Virus record (IMG/VR): IMGVR_UViG_3300009163_000075
Coordinates: 1-40,390 of that record
DNA: 40,390 bases
Direction: 5' to 3' (one strand)
Source: a virus
Notes under the pieces: generated by a model
Told to the model about the DNA's origin: nothing
The model's database searches: none
What the model saw: the letters and a program-made list of their open reading frames with translations, nothing else
Translations under genes and position numbers: made by a program
Shown here: positions 10,950-40,390 of the stretch, one piece after another
Position numbering within the stretch: the stretch's first letter is position 1
Layout of the letters: each line of letters opens with the position of its first letter

Positions 10950-12452
10950 ATGACTGTCAACTACACAACCAACCTAGCCCTCGGACAGCCGGTAACAGGT
11001 ACAGAAAGTTCAAGCTGGGGGGATGACGTAAACAATGCAGTTACGTCTTATTTAGACATTGCCGTTGCTGGCGGCTTGGCGATCACTATCACTACGGCGG
11101 ATGTCACGCTTACCAATACACAGGGTACAAGCTCGGCAACCAACATTGGCTCGACTACGGCGCAGTACGCCATCCTAAACATCAGCGGGGCTAAGACTGC
11201 GGCCCGTAACTTGAATTTACCGATCACTAGCAAGTGGTACATGATTAACAATGCGGGGACAGGTGGGTTTGCACTTACTGTGCGCGGTACAACTCCTACT
11301 ACTGGGGTTACTTTGACTGATGGCGAGCGGGTTCTCGTTGCTTGGAACGGCACCGACTACGTAAAAGTAAGCACAAATACCCAAACAGTAGCTACTACAA
11401 ATTTTCCTACTATCTCATCTAGTGGACTTACTGGTAACGTCCCCGCTGGCGACTCTACAGCGCCCATTCTAACCGGCACAGGTTCAGCAACCGCTACTAT
11501 TTATGGAAACTATATAAACCCTCAAGTAAATGTTACAGATTCTGGTGGGTCTGCTGTAACATCTGTACTTGGTGCGCAAATAACTCCAGCTATTTTAAGT
11601 TCAGGCGAGACAACAGTACTTAATATTACCGGCCTAGGTGTAAATATTACTAGGACAAATAGTAATGATTTATCGTCAGCTAGTTCAACTGTATACGGCA
11701 TAAATAATGTTATAAATTATCAATCTTCTGCACCGGCTAGTACATATACAAGTACAATATATGGAACAGTGTCGGATATGCGTATACAGGGAGGGGGCGG
11801 AAATACAATACAAAACATTTATGCGCTTCAGTCTATATTTACCCAAAGTGCCACATCCCCCATTGCCTCTGTAACTACAGTTTATGGGATACGCAATAGC
11901 AGTTCTATTGGTAATACCACTGGCACTGCATTTACAGTTACCAATCATTACGGTATATTTTCTTCAACTTCAACGGGTGTTTCGGCAACAATAACTAATT
12001 TTTACGGTTTATATTTAGCGCATACTGTTACTGGCACAAACACCAATCGGTATGGCGTGTATCAGTTAGATTCCGCAGCAACCAATTATTTTGCTGGTTC
12101 CGTGCTTGCTTCTGGGGCTACTGGTGGATTAGGTTATGGCACAGGTTCTGGAGGCACTGTAACTCAAGGCACTTCTAGAACTACAGGCGTAACGCTTAGT
12201 AAAAATAATGGCGCTATTACTATGTTTTCAGCCGCAGGGTCGGCACTAGCAGCCACTTTTACAGTAACCAATACGTTAGTTGCAGCCACTGATACGATTA
12301 TTTTAAATCAAAAGTCTGGAACTAATTTGTATGTGCTATTAGTAACCGCAGTGGCTGCGGGTAGCTTTAATATCACGTTTTACACCACCGGGGGCGTTGC
12401 AACCGATGCTCCAGTTATTAACTTTTCTTTAATTAAAGCAGTAACTGCATAA
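10950..12452 (+). CDS. Tail fibre protein, first of two paralogues
   Basis: The 500-aa protein opens with 'MTVNYTTNLALGQPVTGTES' and 'SSWGDDVNNAVTSYLDIAVA', a fibre N-terminal module shared almost residue for residue with the protein at 12671-13501. The middle (about residues 170-370) has repeated short motifs such as 'TTVYGIRN', 'TNHYGIF', 'TNFYGLYL' and 'TNRYGVYQ', suggesting a repeating-strand shaft. The last 105 residues match a common phage fibre C-terminus ('GSGGTVTQGTSRTTGVTLSK'). Gly/Thr/Ser richness and absence of enzymatic motifs support a structural fibre role. Confidence 0.85.
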   Translation: MTVNYTTNLALGQPVTGTESSSWGDDVNNAVTSYLDIAVAGGLAITITTADVTLTNTQGTSSATNIGSTTAQYAILNISGAKTAARNLNLPITSKWYMINNAGTGGFALTVRGTTPTTGVTLTDGERVLVAWNGTDYVKVSTNTQTVATTNFPTISSSGLTGNVPAGDSTAPILTGTGSATATIYGNYINPQVNVTDSGGSAVTSVLGAQITPAILSSGETTVLNITGLGVNITRTNSNDLSSASSTVYGINNVINYQSSAPASTYTSTIYGTVSDMRIQGGGGNTIQNIYALQSIFTQSATSPIASVTTVYGIRNSSSIGNTTGTAFTVTNHYGIFSSTSTGVSATITNFYGLYLAHTVTGTNTNRYGVYQLDSAATNYFAGSVLASGATGGLGYGTGSGGTVTQGTSRTTGVTLSKNNGAITMFSAAGSALAATFTVTNTLVAATDTIILNQKSGTNLYVLLVTAVAAGSFNITFYTTGGVATDAPVINFSLIKAVTA

Positions 12453-12670: not shown

Positions 12671-13501
12671 ATGACAGTCAATTACACAACCAGTCTAAAA
12701 CTTGGGCAACCAGTAACAGGTACGGAGTCTGGTACATGGGGTGAGGACGTAAATAACAGCGTTACGTCTTATTTAGACATTGCTATTGCTGGCGGCTTGG
12801 CTATCCCAATTACTAGCGCTGATGTTACGCTTACTCTTACAACGGGTGATAATACGGCAACAGGAATTATCTCTACTGGAGCTAGTGGAAGCACCGCGCA
12901 GTATGCTATCCTGAACATAAGCGGCACAAAAACAGCAGCGCGTAATTTAAACGTACCAGCGTCCAGTAAAAGTTATGTAATCAACAATAGCGCAGCTTTA
13001 GGAGGGTACGCACTTACTGTGCGCGGATTTACTTCTCCAAGCACTTACACCACAGGCATCACGCTGGTTGACGGTGAAAAAGCAATTGTGGCTTGGAACG
13101 GTACGGACTACGTAAAAATTGCAAGTAGCTCTGGCCCTGTAGCATTTACCACATTAACCGCAAGCGGCAGTGCCGCCACTCCCCCTGTAGTAGTTGCTTT
13201 TTCCGCCACTGCAATGGCTATCAACTGTGCGCTGTCAAACGTATTTACAACCACAATGACTGCCAATGTAACAGTTGCCCCAACATTTTCAAACCTAACG
13301 GATGGTCAGACCATCAATTGGTTTATCACACAAGACACAGGAAACCGTACTATGACTTGGCCCACATCGTTTAAGTGGGCAGGCGGTTCTACATTTGCAG
13401 GAGTTCTTAGTACAACAGCTAGTGCGGTAGACCTATTAGTAGCAACGTACCGTAGCTCTACTGGTTTTTGGTACGCATCACTTGCAAAGGGGTTTGCATG
13501 A
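12671..13501 (+). CDS. Tail fibre protein, second paralogue
   Basis: Residues 1-155 of this 276-aa protein parallel the N-terminus of the 500-aa fibre ('MTVNYTTSLKLGQPVTGTES', 'DVNNSVTSYLDIAIAGGLAI', 'ALTVRGF', 'AWNGTDYVKI'). The C-terminal 105 residues differ completely and carry the common phage module 'GQTINWFITQDTGNRTMTWP' then 'FKWAGGS'. Two fibres with a shared base and different tips suggest alternate receptor-binding modules attached at equivalent sites. Its TGA overlaps the start of the propeller gene. Confidence 0.85.
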   Translation: MTVNYTTSLKLGQPVTGTESGTWGEDVNNSVTSYLDIAIAGGLAIPITSADVTLTLTTGDNTATGIISTGASGSTAQYAILNISGTKTAARNLNVPASSKSYVINNSAALGGYALTVRGFTSPSTYTTGITLVDGEKAIVAWNGTDYVKIASSSGPVAFTTLTASGSAATPPVVVAFSATAMAINCALSNVFTTTMTANVTVAPTFSNLTDGQTINWFITQDTGNRTMTWPTSFKWAGGSTFAGVLSTTASAVDLLVATYRSSTGFWYASLAKGFA

Positions 13502-37825: not shown

Positions 37826-40390
37826 CTAGCAGTCTCCATAACTTTTACCGTACCCTGCCTCGCAGTTCAAGGGTAGTTCAAGCGCCCACTTAGGACGTAA
37901 GCGCATACAAAATTCAACGTACTCCTTAGCCGTATCTGCTTGCTGCTCGGGCACAACGATAGCAATGGCATCATGGACAGTCATCACCACACGGTACTTC
38001 TTGGCAATGTTAAGCATCTGCTCCCCGATAACAATACGGGCTAGGGCTTGGCACACGTTCTCTATAACTTTACCACCGTATATGCGGTTAGGCACAATGG
38101 CTATGCCCTTTTTAGTGTCGTACACAAACTCCGAAGATGCTTCCTCGTCCTCTGTAGCGGGCTTAGCAACTTTGCGTAGATTGGGATACTTTAAGCGTAA
38201 GTCGTTGGGTAGCAGAATACCCTTGCTCCCATGTATTTGCAACTTGTAACCAACACCAAGCGTAGTCTGCTGGTTCTGTAATATGCCGTTAAGGGCACTA
38301 CCTGCTGACCACCATAGCTTGCGGATTTCGGGGTAAGTTTTGCGATAGACATCAATGACATGCTTGGCAGCGTCTAGCTCAAAGTCCACGCCAAAGGTCT
38401 TTAACTGCGCCTTGAACTTAGCTGCACCCATGCCGTAGCCGCAGTTATGGACAACTAGGGGGCCATCAGCACTTAAGATTGTGTATCGGTTTCTCGGCCC
38501 TGAGTAGGCGATGTCGTAAGTCTGCATTCTCTGCTTCAAGGGCGGCAACTCTCTCTTGCATGCGTCCGATGCTACGCCTATTTGCCATGTTGGTTGAACG
38601 CCCCACAAAGCGAAGATTGCCCGGCTCGTAACCCCTATCCACGTCAATCCTGTCCAGTTCAAGACTTTGAGTACCGTGACCTTCCAACGTAAGAAGGTAT
38701 TTGAGGAAAGCGATTCGGTCAGTTCTCCACGGTTCGTAGACGTATATACCGCGCCCGCCATAGTGGGGGTATACCTTGCTGTTGGGGTTGTGACACCGGG
38801 AAACGCACGATGAGATACGGTTGAGGAGCCTAGCTCGTGTGGCTTCATCAGGACATACGCTTTCATATGCCCAATAGCGTTTAGTATGCGCCTTAATTTT
38901 GGCGCAAGTGTTGCACCTAGTGCTACGACCTTTAATAAGGTTTTCCCGTAGGACAACCCCGACCCACCCACATGAACATTTGCAAATAGGATGCCATCCA
39001 CGGTTCCTACCCTTTGTGGTTTTATGTGGCCCCCACTCAACGACAGTAAGTTCGCCACACTTCGCGCCGACTGCCAAAGGGAAGTCTTTGTAGTTACCTC
39101 TGACCACGCCTCCCAACCATGTTCCGTCAGGATTTCGTGGTCCGATGTTGCGCTTATTCCCTTGTAAGTCCATACGTCTTTTACCCCTTGGTCGACCACT
39201 CCACCATGCTGTACCCACCGTAACCCATCCCACACCATATCCGTAACCTGTACGTGGATTATAGGTATCCAACCTCGGGTTGTCAACACTAGGGTGTCTG
39301 CGCCAAAGCAACCTAGTATGGTGGTCTTGCCTACGAACCGCTCGTCTTTGGTAATCTCGCTCTGAGGCTTGCCGTAAATAGCCGAGGCCATTATTTTGTA
39401 AACGTCCTCACCATCCTCAAAGGCTTGCACCAAGTCGTCCTGTCCAGCTAACCATGCCAACGTACGCGCTTCAATCTGCGAGGAGTCCGAGTCCAGTATT
39501 ACGTAACCATCGGGGGGAATGATGCACTCTTTTAAGATGGAATTGCGTGGTAGGTTCTGTAAGTTCAGCTTGTCATCGCCACCCCAGCGTCCGGTGTGTG
39601 CTGCGTAGTAGCGTAGGGGTACGGGCAATGCGCCGCGTGAAGCAATCCCCATAAACCGCTCGGTGCGAGTTTCCTCAATCGTGGACTTTGTACCTAACCG
39701 TGCAACTACTAGGGCTTGTACGTTTGGTTCTTCGTGTTCAAGCAGGGCTTTGAACTCTTCATCAGTCTTAGAAAACGCGTACGTCTGTTTGCCATTGGCA
39801 GGGCTAACTTTCATTGGGGGCTCTACCCCGTATTGCCGCAGTAGCTCAGCAAACTTGGGGTTGCTCATCAACGTGTCTTTGTCGTAAAAACCTAATATCC
39901 GTTCTTTATTAGCCTTAACTTGGAACAAGTACTGAGTTAACAGCGCCCTACGCAACTGCAAAACCGGCTCGGTGAACATACGCACGGTCAGGTCAATGAG
40001 TCGCAACTCAGTCGGCGGGAACTCCCCCATCGCGTTGAACAGCGCCCATGTCAGGGCCACATCGTTCTTGCAATATTCACCGTATCGTGCAAGCTGGTCG
40101 GCGGGGAAAGCCTCGCGCCTAAGCCCGAGTGCGTTGACAACCTCAGTGCCCTTCTCCCCCAAGCCATAGTGAGATGCAAGCACAGCTAAGCTACCACCTA
40201 CCTCCGTACCGTGTAGCGCACGGCCCATGCTCAGCGTGTCCAACCAACCCTTGGGCTTGATACCGAACACCCAATTAAGGATGGCTCCATCAAACGGCGC
40301 GTTGTGCGCCAAAGCCAGCGAGTGCTCCCAATCAAACGATGCAAGGAACTGGTGCGTATCAGCAGGGGTTCCACTAAACCACACTGGCTC
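37826..40390 (-). CDS. polA: Family A DNA polymerase with 3'-5' exonuclease, interrupted by an intein (5' end outside window)
   Basis: The open frame runs off the right edge, so residues are numbered from codon 40384. Exonuclease motifs are 'AHNAPFDGAIL' (Asp32) and 'EYCKNDVALTW'; exo I is off-window. Polymerase motif A is 'LDSDSSQIEAR' (Asp300 as catalytic). Motif B is split by an intein: 'RFVGKTTILG' (Arg349, Lys353, Leu357), then after the intein 'CGYGMG' (Cys648). Motif C is 'VHDAI' (His804-Asp805), with Ala where E. coli-type enzymes have Glu. Leu357 corresponds to position 762 of E. coli Pol I. The enzyme replicates the phage genome and is active only after protein splicing, because the intein separates O-helix residues. 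Confidence 0.95.
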   Translation of the reverse strand, partial: EPVWFSGTPADTHQFLASFDWEHSLALAHNAPFDGAILNWVFGIKPKGWLDTLSMGRALHGTEVGGSLAVLASHYGLGEKGTEVVNALGLRREAFPADQLARYGEYCKNDVALTWALFNAMGEFPPTELRLIDLTVRMFTEPVLQLRRALLTQYLFQVKANKERILGFYDKDTLMSNPKFAELLRQYGVEPPMKVSPANGKQTYAFSKTDEEFKALLEHEEPNVQALVVARLGTKSTIEETRTERFMGIASRGALPVPLRYYAAHTGRWGGDDKLNLQNLPRNSILKECIIPPDGYVILDSDSSQIEARTLAWLAGQDDLVQAFEDGEDVYKIMASAIYGKPQSEITKDERFVGKTTILGCFGADTLVLTTRGWIPIIHVQVTDMVWDGLRWVQHGGVVDQGVKDVWTYKGISATSDHEILTEHGWEAWSEVTTKTSLWQSARSVANLLSLSGGHIKPQRVGTVDGILFANVHVGGSGLSYGKTLLKVVALGATLAPKLRRILNAIGHMKAYVLMKPHELGSSTVSHRAFPGVTTPTARYTPTMAGAVYTSTNRGELTESLSSNTFLRWKVTVLKVLNWTGLTWIGVTSRAIFALWGVQPTWQIGVASDACKRELPPLKQRMQTYDIAYSGPRNRYTILSADGPLVVHNCGYGMGAAKFKAQLKTFGVDFELDAAKHVIDVYRKTYPEIRKLWWSAGSALNGILQNQQTTLGVGYKLQIHGSKGILLPNDLRLKYPNLRKVAKPATEDEEASSEFVYDTKKGIAIVPNRIYGGKVIENVCQALARIVIGEQMLNIAKKYRVVMTVHDAIAIVVPEQQADTAKEYVEFCMRLRPKWALELPLNCEAGYGKSYGDC
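38444..39310 (-). mobile_element. Intein (289 aa) in polymerase motif B, with a nested endonuclease gene
   Basis: The element is in frame with the polymerase. It starts with Cys1 (codon 39308-39310; block A 'CFGADTLVLTTRGWIPI'). Block B is 'ATSDHEIL' with Thr55 and His58. It ends with block F 'TYDIAYSGPRNRYTIL' and block G 'GPLVVHN' followed by Cys+1 (codon 38441-38443). All residues for class 1 splicing are present: Cys1, TxxH, penultimate His, terminal Asn and Cys+1. The middle about 160 residues show no LAGLIDADG or other in-frame endonuclease; instead an HNH endonuclease is encoded in another frame. Ligation would give 'TTILGCGYGMG', a normal motif B. Confidence 0.95.
38466..39173 (-). 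CDS. HNH homing endonuclease nested out of frame in the intein
   Basis: ATG 39173 has AAGGGG 10 bases upstream; a TTG at 39311 would extend it but lacks family sequence. The 235-aa protein has an N-terminal 'LAVGAKCGELTVVEW' and Cys pairs (CKCSCGW...CNTC), probably zinc-binding. The HNH core 'SRCHNPNSKVYPHYGGRGIY' is followed by 'LELDRIDVDRGYEPGNLRFV' and 'STNMANRR', the form typical of phage HNH homing endonucleases. A coiled-coil tail (ERVAALEAENADLRHRLLR) ends at TGA 38466-38468. It is on the polymerase strand, shifted by one base. It overlaps intein block B at its start and block F at its end, and lies wholly within the intein. It presumably cuts inteinless polymerase genes. Confidence 0.9.
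   Translation of the reverse strand: MDLQGNKRNIGPRNPDGTWLGGVVRGNYKDFPLAVGAKCGELTVVEWGPHKTTKGRNRGWHPICKCSCGWVGVVLRENLIKGRSTRCNTCAKIKAHTKRYWAYESVCPDEATRARLLNRISSCVSRCHNPNSKVYPHYGGRGIYVYEPWRTDRIAFLKYLLTLEGHGTQSLELDRIDVDRGYEPGNLRFVGRSTNMANRRSIGRMQERVAALEAENADLRHRLLRAEKPIHNLKC

Follow-up and report, generated by a model that had tools for sequence, protein, structure and literature searches.

The window analysed here, a stretch of 40390 bases, is a viral contig, one end of which falls within the gene for DNA polymerase I (PolA). On the minus strand the polymerase frame is free of stops from the contig end at 40390 to 37826 (854 codons) and contains an intein of 289 residues at 39310-38444, with C1 at 39310 and N289 at 38444. 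The insertion point lies in polymerase motif B (ILG|CGYG). The splicing blocks of the intein are CFGADTLVL (block A), TSDH (block B) and TYDIAYSGPRNRYTILSADGPLVVHN (blocks F/G), followed by Cys+1. The residues characteristic of class-1 inteins (C1, T55 and H58 of the block B TxxH, H288 and N289) are invariant across 22 relatives, and the residue at +1 is Cys, with Ser in one relative (L004). The N-extein region can be aligned with intein-free relatives, at identities of up to 88%. Another contig (L006) is 99.9% identical to the window over the whole stretch.

The middle of the intein is overlapped by a second open reading frame encoding an HNH endonuclease (Table 1). The phrog_374 profile (HNH endonuclease) is matched by 23 of the 23 aligned members of this HNH family. 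The motif LDRID...YEPGNLRFV...N..N+R is conserved; the canonical first His is not evident, and DRID stands in its place. Invariant columns comprise Y138, G139, R141, G142, D174, R175, Y182, P184, N186, F189 and R200, and an invariant Cys is also retained among the relatives. A Pfam search of the window proteins, the intein included, gave no HNH or Hint match. Where Pfam gave nothing, the HNH protein was matched by PHROGs and the intein by its family profile, which matches the PI-MtuI mini-intein (E 1e-4). The in-frame middle of the intein holds no recognised domain and is predicted to be disordered, which sets the element apart from a bifunctional (maxi-)intein; the host frame runs uninterrupted between the two intein halves, which distinguishes it from a fractured gene or split intein.

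Table 1. Features of the polymerase, intein and HNH frames at the locus, in window coordinates.
Feature	Position	Strand	Basis
PolA (DNA polymerase I) N-extein	39311..40390	-	gene 5' end beyond contig end; Pfam DNA_pol_A E 1.1e-29
Intein N-terminal splicing half, residues 1-91 (Cys1, block A, block B TxxH)	39038..39310	-	pLDDT, Foldseek, family profile
Shine-Dalgarno-like AAGGGG, 10 nt before HNH ATG	39184..39189	-	sequence; L088 has AAAGGAG at same place
Overlap zone 1 (intein block B and HNH residues 1-34), dominated by the intein frame; HNH disorder predicted up to residue 29	39072..39173	-	codon-position rates, AlphaFold
HNH endonuclease ORF, 235 aa plus stop, ATG start, -1 (+2) frame relative to intein	38466..39173	-	phrog_374 E 9.2e-34
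Intein-frame linker, residues 92-255, stop-free read-through of HNH gene, predicted disordered	38546..39037	-	pLDDT about 27; codon-position rates; 0 vs 286 stops
HNH nuclease motif region, residues 138-200 (YGGRGI ... LDRID ... YEPGNLRFV ... N..N+R)	38574..38762	-	invariant columns
Overlap zone 2 (stretch leading to block F and HNH coiled-coil tail, residues 201-235), with constraint on both frames	38469..38573	-	codon-position rates 0.186/0.089/0.216
Intein C-terminal splicing half, residues 256-289 (blocks F, G; His288-Asn289)	38444..38545	-	pLDDT >90 over most; H288/N289 invariance
PolA C-extein from Cys+1 (38443-38441); stop codon 37828-37826	37829..38443	-	open frame

The HNH frame is open upstream of position 39173 as well, and the window alone does not fix its start. 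In three relatives (L007, L008 and L088) an in-frame stop occurs shortly upstream, and the first start after it is an ATG at the position common to all, which supports the ATG at 39173 as the start of the HNH gene. The sequence preceding this ATG in the three relatives is AAGGGG, GAGGGG or AAAGGAG. The initial annotation had assigned the gene its own start with an upstream AAGGGG, and both are supported, at 39173 and 39189-39184 respectively. Pairing of the Shine-Dalgarno (SD) region reaches -6 kcal/mol or better in 57% of HNH-frame ATGs, against 10.5% of the background; the mean pairing energy is -5.6 kcal/mol for HNH-frame ATGs, -2.5 for ATGs in other frames and -2.1 for the background. This excess is supportive and not decisive, since it is partly due to the conserved intein residues WDG.EWV, the codons of which are GG-rich and contain ATG. 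The presence of a start codon and an SD-like site of its own points to internal initiation of HNH translation. Alternatively, the HNH frame might be reached by programmed -1 frameshifting, the fusion of the N-terminal part of the intein with HNH being the real endonuclease. We regard this as unlikely. Programmed shifts usually go to the -1 frame, where the HNH of the window family lies, and in some loci that frame is open from upstream. Against this, the region before the HNH core has no conserved slippery heptamer, the stop just upstream of the ATG in the three relatives leaves only a short stretch for the shift, the nested HNH genes of a second family are read in the +1 frame, and SD pairing at the ATG clearly exceeds the background.

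Coexistence of the two open frames was evaluated by permuting HNH codons synonymously and counting stops in the intein frame, and by the reverse permutation. At the window locus about 7 intein-frame stops are expected and none is observed; the product of the probabilities of zero stops over 22 loci is about 1e-56, and 62 distinct loci display 0 intein-frame stops against the 286 expected if the HNH protein alone were constrained. In the reverse permutation 5-11 HNH-frame stops are expected per locus, against 0 in each of the 22 loci. A chance open frame is ruled out by the permutations in both directions. The initial description of the locus, as an HNH gene lying out of frame inside an intein with all canonical splicing residues, is upheld, and both frames are open in 62 relatives.

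Codon-position rates, calculated as substitutions per site in 13 pairs, reveal which of the two frames is under selection along the element. Upstream of the HNH gene the third base of intein codons changes fastest (0.308 vs 0.136 and 0.077), and it still has the highest rate in the region encoding the HNH N-terminus (0.232 vs 0.138 and 0.141). Within the core of the endonuclease, HNH residues 35-200, the fastest position is the wobble base of HNH codons, which is the second base of intein codons (0.340 vs 0.129 and 0.095), indicating that all that is preserved of the intein frame in this part is the absence of stops. The rates in the HNH tail are mixed (Table 1). The contrast of the selection frames corresponds to a chi-square p of about 2e-34, calculated over pairs that are not independent. 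The constraint by two proteins is limited to about 35 codons at each end of the HNH gene, and the two frames split the element between them. The initial annotation had envisaged about 235 codons under dual constraint, which is opposed by the codon-position rates and by the disorder that AlphaFold predicts for intein residues 92-255.

The same comparisons bear on the possibility that the HNH frame is a dead remnant, held open by inertia within what is in effect a mini-intein. Loss of the endonuclease is evidently tolerated, as a single stop breaks the HNH frame next to an intact intein in L140 and a mini-intein without HNH occupies the same motif in L102. Against these cases stand purifying selection on the HNH-frame amino acids of the core across the 13 pairs, the intactness of HNH in 22 of 22 loci down to about 37% identity, and the persistence of the invariant Cys and the motif residues; a dead remnant is accordingly quite improbable.

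Structure predictions agree with the division of the element between the frames. In the AlphaFold models, built from alignments of the loci only, intein residues 1-91 and 256-289 have pLDDT above 90 over most of their length, while residues 92-255 are at about 27. A Foldseek search with the intein model comprising both ends returns the Ssp DnaB mini-intein as the best match (E 5e-4, probability 1.00), along with other mini-inteins. As modelled, the intein is a confidently predicted mini-intein joined by a disordered linker of 164 residues, the linker being the stop-free shadow of the HNH gene. The HNH model is confident from residue 30 onwards, and its part over block B is predicted to be disordered. 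A PDB fold search with this model matched no solved structure. Among predicted viral structures its closest neighbours are HNH endonucleases, headed by an uncharacterised ORF of Salmonella phage LPSE1. In phage LPSE1 the intein itself lies under a gene annotated merely as hypothetical.

The annotation of Sodalis phage SO-1 describes the corresponding insert (gp38/gp39) as a self-splicing intron of type I that carries an HNH gene. Group I introns often house HNH genes, which lends this label some appeal; however, searches of the window region and of L101, L096, L088, L001 and L003 gave no match to an Rfam intron model at E up to 1, and the host frame traverses the insert, encoding a full intein with a predicted mini-intein fold. 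We consider a self-splicing intron highly unlikely.

The arrangement is common among phages. A tblastn search of phage records with the intein and HNH sequences found both co-located in Jerseyvirus (more than 140 Salmonella records), EBPR siphovirus 2, Pseudomonas MR14, Vibrio 97.13, Sodalis SO-1 and Shigella EP23. Every locus inspected in detail has HNH in the -1 frame and a polymerase frame that continues through the intein without a stop. With scans of viral and bacterial contigs added, the count rises to 88 loci with the -1 arrangement; 13 more have HNH in the +1 frame, mainly in prophage-type PolA of bacterial genomes, and in 17 further loci HNH is free-standing or cut at the contig edge. 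Some of the contigs counted are near-identical. Most loci were found through HNH similarity, a source of sampling bias. In a set selected by PolA, independently of HNH, a nested HNH was present in 12 of the 12 complete inteins among the best 80 matches. None of the HNH loci examined has HNH in frame with an intein. The proposal of the initial annotation that mobility is encoded apart from the splicing protein is supported. The locus L186, flagged by its long own frame as an in-frame intein domain, proved to be a free-standing HNH. Two outcomes had been named in advance as damaging to the interpretation, a routinely broken HNH frame and an indel joining HNH to the intein frame. Nearly all relatives retain an intact HNH frame, with one clear decay, and no such indel was seen. 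On another view, a pair of indels from assembly or sequencing shifted an in-frame HNH domain of the ordinary kind into a different frame; such errors do occur in single metagenome contigs. The same offset recurs, however, in cultured phages and in many contigs independent of one another, which refutes this explanation and leaves it next to no probability.

Several of the loci have further peculiarities. One PolA gene (L091:2795-5197) contains two inteins, each with an out-of-frame HNH, the first in the -1 and the second in the +1 frame. L157 and L158 carry inteins of the same family with a much longer insert and an HNH frame of up to about 1064 nt. The phage L005 (PP389045), for which the deposited host is Pseudomonas syringae, has a polA region nearly identical to that of the Salmonella Jerseyvirus Ent1, and a nested locus in a Taishania genome assembly (L180) is 95% identical to Jerseyvirus, possibly as a phage contaminant.

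Comparison of the loci shows lateral movement of the intein. The intein DNA of the window is 96.9% identical to that of L007, against 77.7% and 71.6% in the two flanks, and 89.2% identical to that of L008, against 64.0% and 58.6%; between L070 and L075 the values are 94.8% against 73.9% and 73.8%. The step in identity is sharp at the intein edges. In the pairs L009-L011 and window-L010 the intein is no more similar than the flanks, which means that not all transfers are of the same recency. Precise empty sites (ILG|AGYG) are present in L012 and other relatives, and intein-free sites also take the forms |SGYG and |CGYG, with Ala, Ser or Cys after the insertion point. The window polymerase is nearest to the intein-free L012 and L014. 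An intein more alike than its flanks and empty sites in close relatives imply that the element moves laterally, as homing predicts; it shows marks of a homing element, namely a precise site, empty sites in relatives and lateral transfer. A Fitch count on the extein tree gives 6 gain/loss steps, a weak lower bound since the loci were sampled via HNH and PolA matches. The decayed HNH of L140 (L140:2300-3500), the near-twin of which, L138, retains an intact HNH, and the mini-intein of L102 complete the set of stages that a homing cycle should show. A plausible origin, judging by the mini-intein of L102 and the free-standing relatives of the endonuclease, is the invasion of a mini-intein by a free-standing HNH gene.

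Taken together, the element is very probably a mobile intein, the homing endonuclease of which is a separate overlapping gene; splicing, HNH translation and cleavage are here deduced from sequence and predicted structure. The PolA-intein-PolA precursor would be translated whole, and the class-1 splicing halves, with their intact residues and predicted fold, would come together around the disordered linker of 164 residues, excise the intein and restore PolA. The same mRNA would yield HNH, encoded in the -1 frame within the linker region, from its own start codon and SD site. The endonuclease would cleave the insertion site in intein-free polA, and repair with an intein-bearing copy as template would transfer the intein and the endonuclease gene together; lateral transfer is evident in the compared loci. 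Across the HNH gene the intein frame is held only stop-free, and strict double coding is limited to the short overlaps at both ends.

In textbook inteins splicing and homing reside in one polypeptide and are produced in equal amounts, and decay of the endonuclease is limited by splicing. The nested element shares with canonical bifunctional inteins of the PI-SceI type the placement of the endonuclease between blocks B and F and its role in homing; unlike their in-frame domain, its endonuclease is a separate ORF in another frame. The fractured genes that Dassa et al. are said to have described in 2009 are reportedly split inteins, the two halves of which flank an endonuclease gene standing on its own. 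There too the endonuclease gene is apart from the intein protein yet inside its coding region; the host gene is in two parts joined by trans splicing, in contrast to the continuous host frame of the window. A fractured-type intein also occurs in the same PolA at L092 (L092:1200-2340), where the N half ends in a stop and is followed by a GIY-YIG ORF and the C half (MRTYDIVNAGPRNRF...VSN|S); the fractured-type and nested-HNH inteins coexist there in one polymerase. An intein of cyanophage CL131, in dCTP deaminase, represents the canonical type, carrying an in-frame HNH_3 domain and excising in E. coli (PMC6293099).

The nearest published case we found, though not an intein, is the ShiLan domain with the Pacc40 gp60 insertion (Arsenault, Gosselin, Gogarten 2025, PMC11855218), where the authors found no splicing domain and consider that the insert stays in the methylase. 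Another methylase with an out-of-frame HNH of the ShiLan kind is described in PMC12613952. Similarly to the window element, the ShiLan insertion leaves the phage host gene open, carries an out-of-frame HNH and has a patchy, homing-like distribution (PMC11855218). Unlike ShiLan, the host frame of the window encodes a complete class-1 intein, and the window family has SD-like sites before the start, whereas no detectable ribosome binding site was reported for ShiLan (PMC11855218). A passage of PMC11855218 describes overlapping reading frames as frequent in actinobacteriophages and cites beside this a 2025 preprint (Gosselin et al.). Our literature search found no description of an out-of-frame endonuclease in an intein; this 2025 preprint, on actinobacteriophage inteins, may overlap with our findings, and Gorbalenya 1998 and Dassa 2009 were outside the search. 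The statement of the initial annotation that no well-established example was known needs revision, as the arrangement is widespread and had already been annotated, unexplained, in SO-1 (gp38/gp39, L101) and APSE-1 (P45/P46, L096). Both are the same nested pairs, annotated as overlapping genes; the SO-1 insert was labelled an intron, the APSE-1 pair was left unexplained, and neither was recognised as an intein with an overprinted endonuclease.

APSE-1 and Caulobacter phage GB2A harbour another HNH subfamily, nested in the +1 frame in PolA inteins at the site GGKxC|EN; the APSE-1 annotation places the HNH P46 within P45. A scan with this P46-type subfamily recovered 41 nested loci, all in the +1 frame, in PolA at several sites and in an SNF2-like helicase (L243, L245, L248 and the second intein of L024). 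Free-standing relatives in the subfamily are about as many as the nested ones, and none is in frame. In L024 (L024:5700-6614) the helicase-like gene has an intein with a +1 nested HNH cut by the locus end. Differences in frame, subfamily and site suggest independent origins of the two families. We give about even chances to the broader reading that phage inteins adopted an out-of-frame endonuclease at least twice. On this reading a single HNH subfamily took the -1 frame (88 loci) and others took the +1 frame (13 loci of prophage type, 41 of APSE type), with several insertion sites in PolA and a further host gene in the helicase, and the whole would be a general architecture previously unrecognised.

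In the nested layout splicing and endonuclease share DNA and not protein. The endonuclease can be regulated or lost independently, as in L140, and the middle of the intein is free to drift while no stop appears. The layout opens to tests the entry of homing endonucleases into inteins, the evolution of internal starts and the cost of long-term overprinting. Phage inteins recorded without an endonuclease, such as the Jerseyvirus PolA 'splicing domains', merit re-reading in all frames.

Elsewhere in the window, two neighbouring genes at 10950-12452 and 12671-13501 encode proteins with a near-identical N-terminus (MTVNYTTxLxLGQPVTGTES...), probably reflecting a tandem duplication of a virion protein gene.
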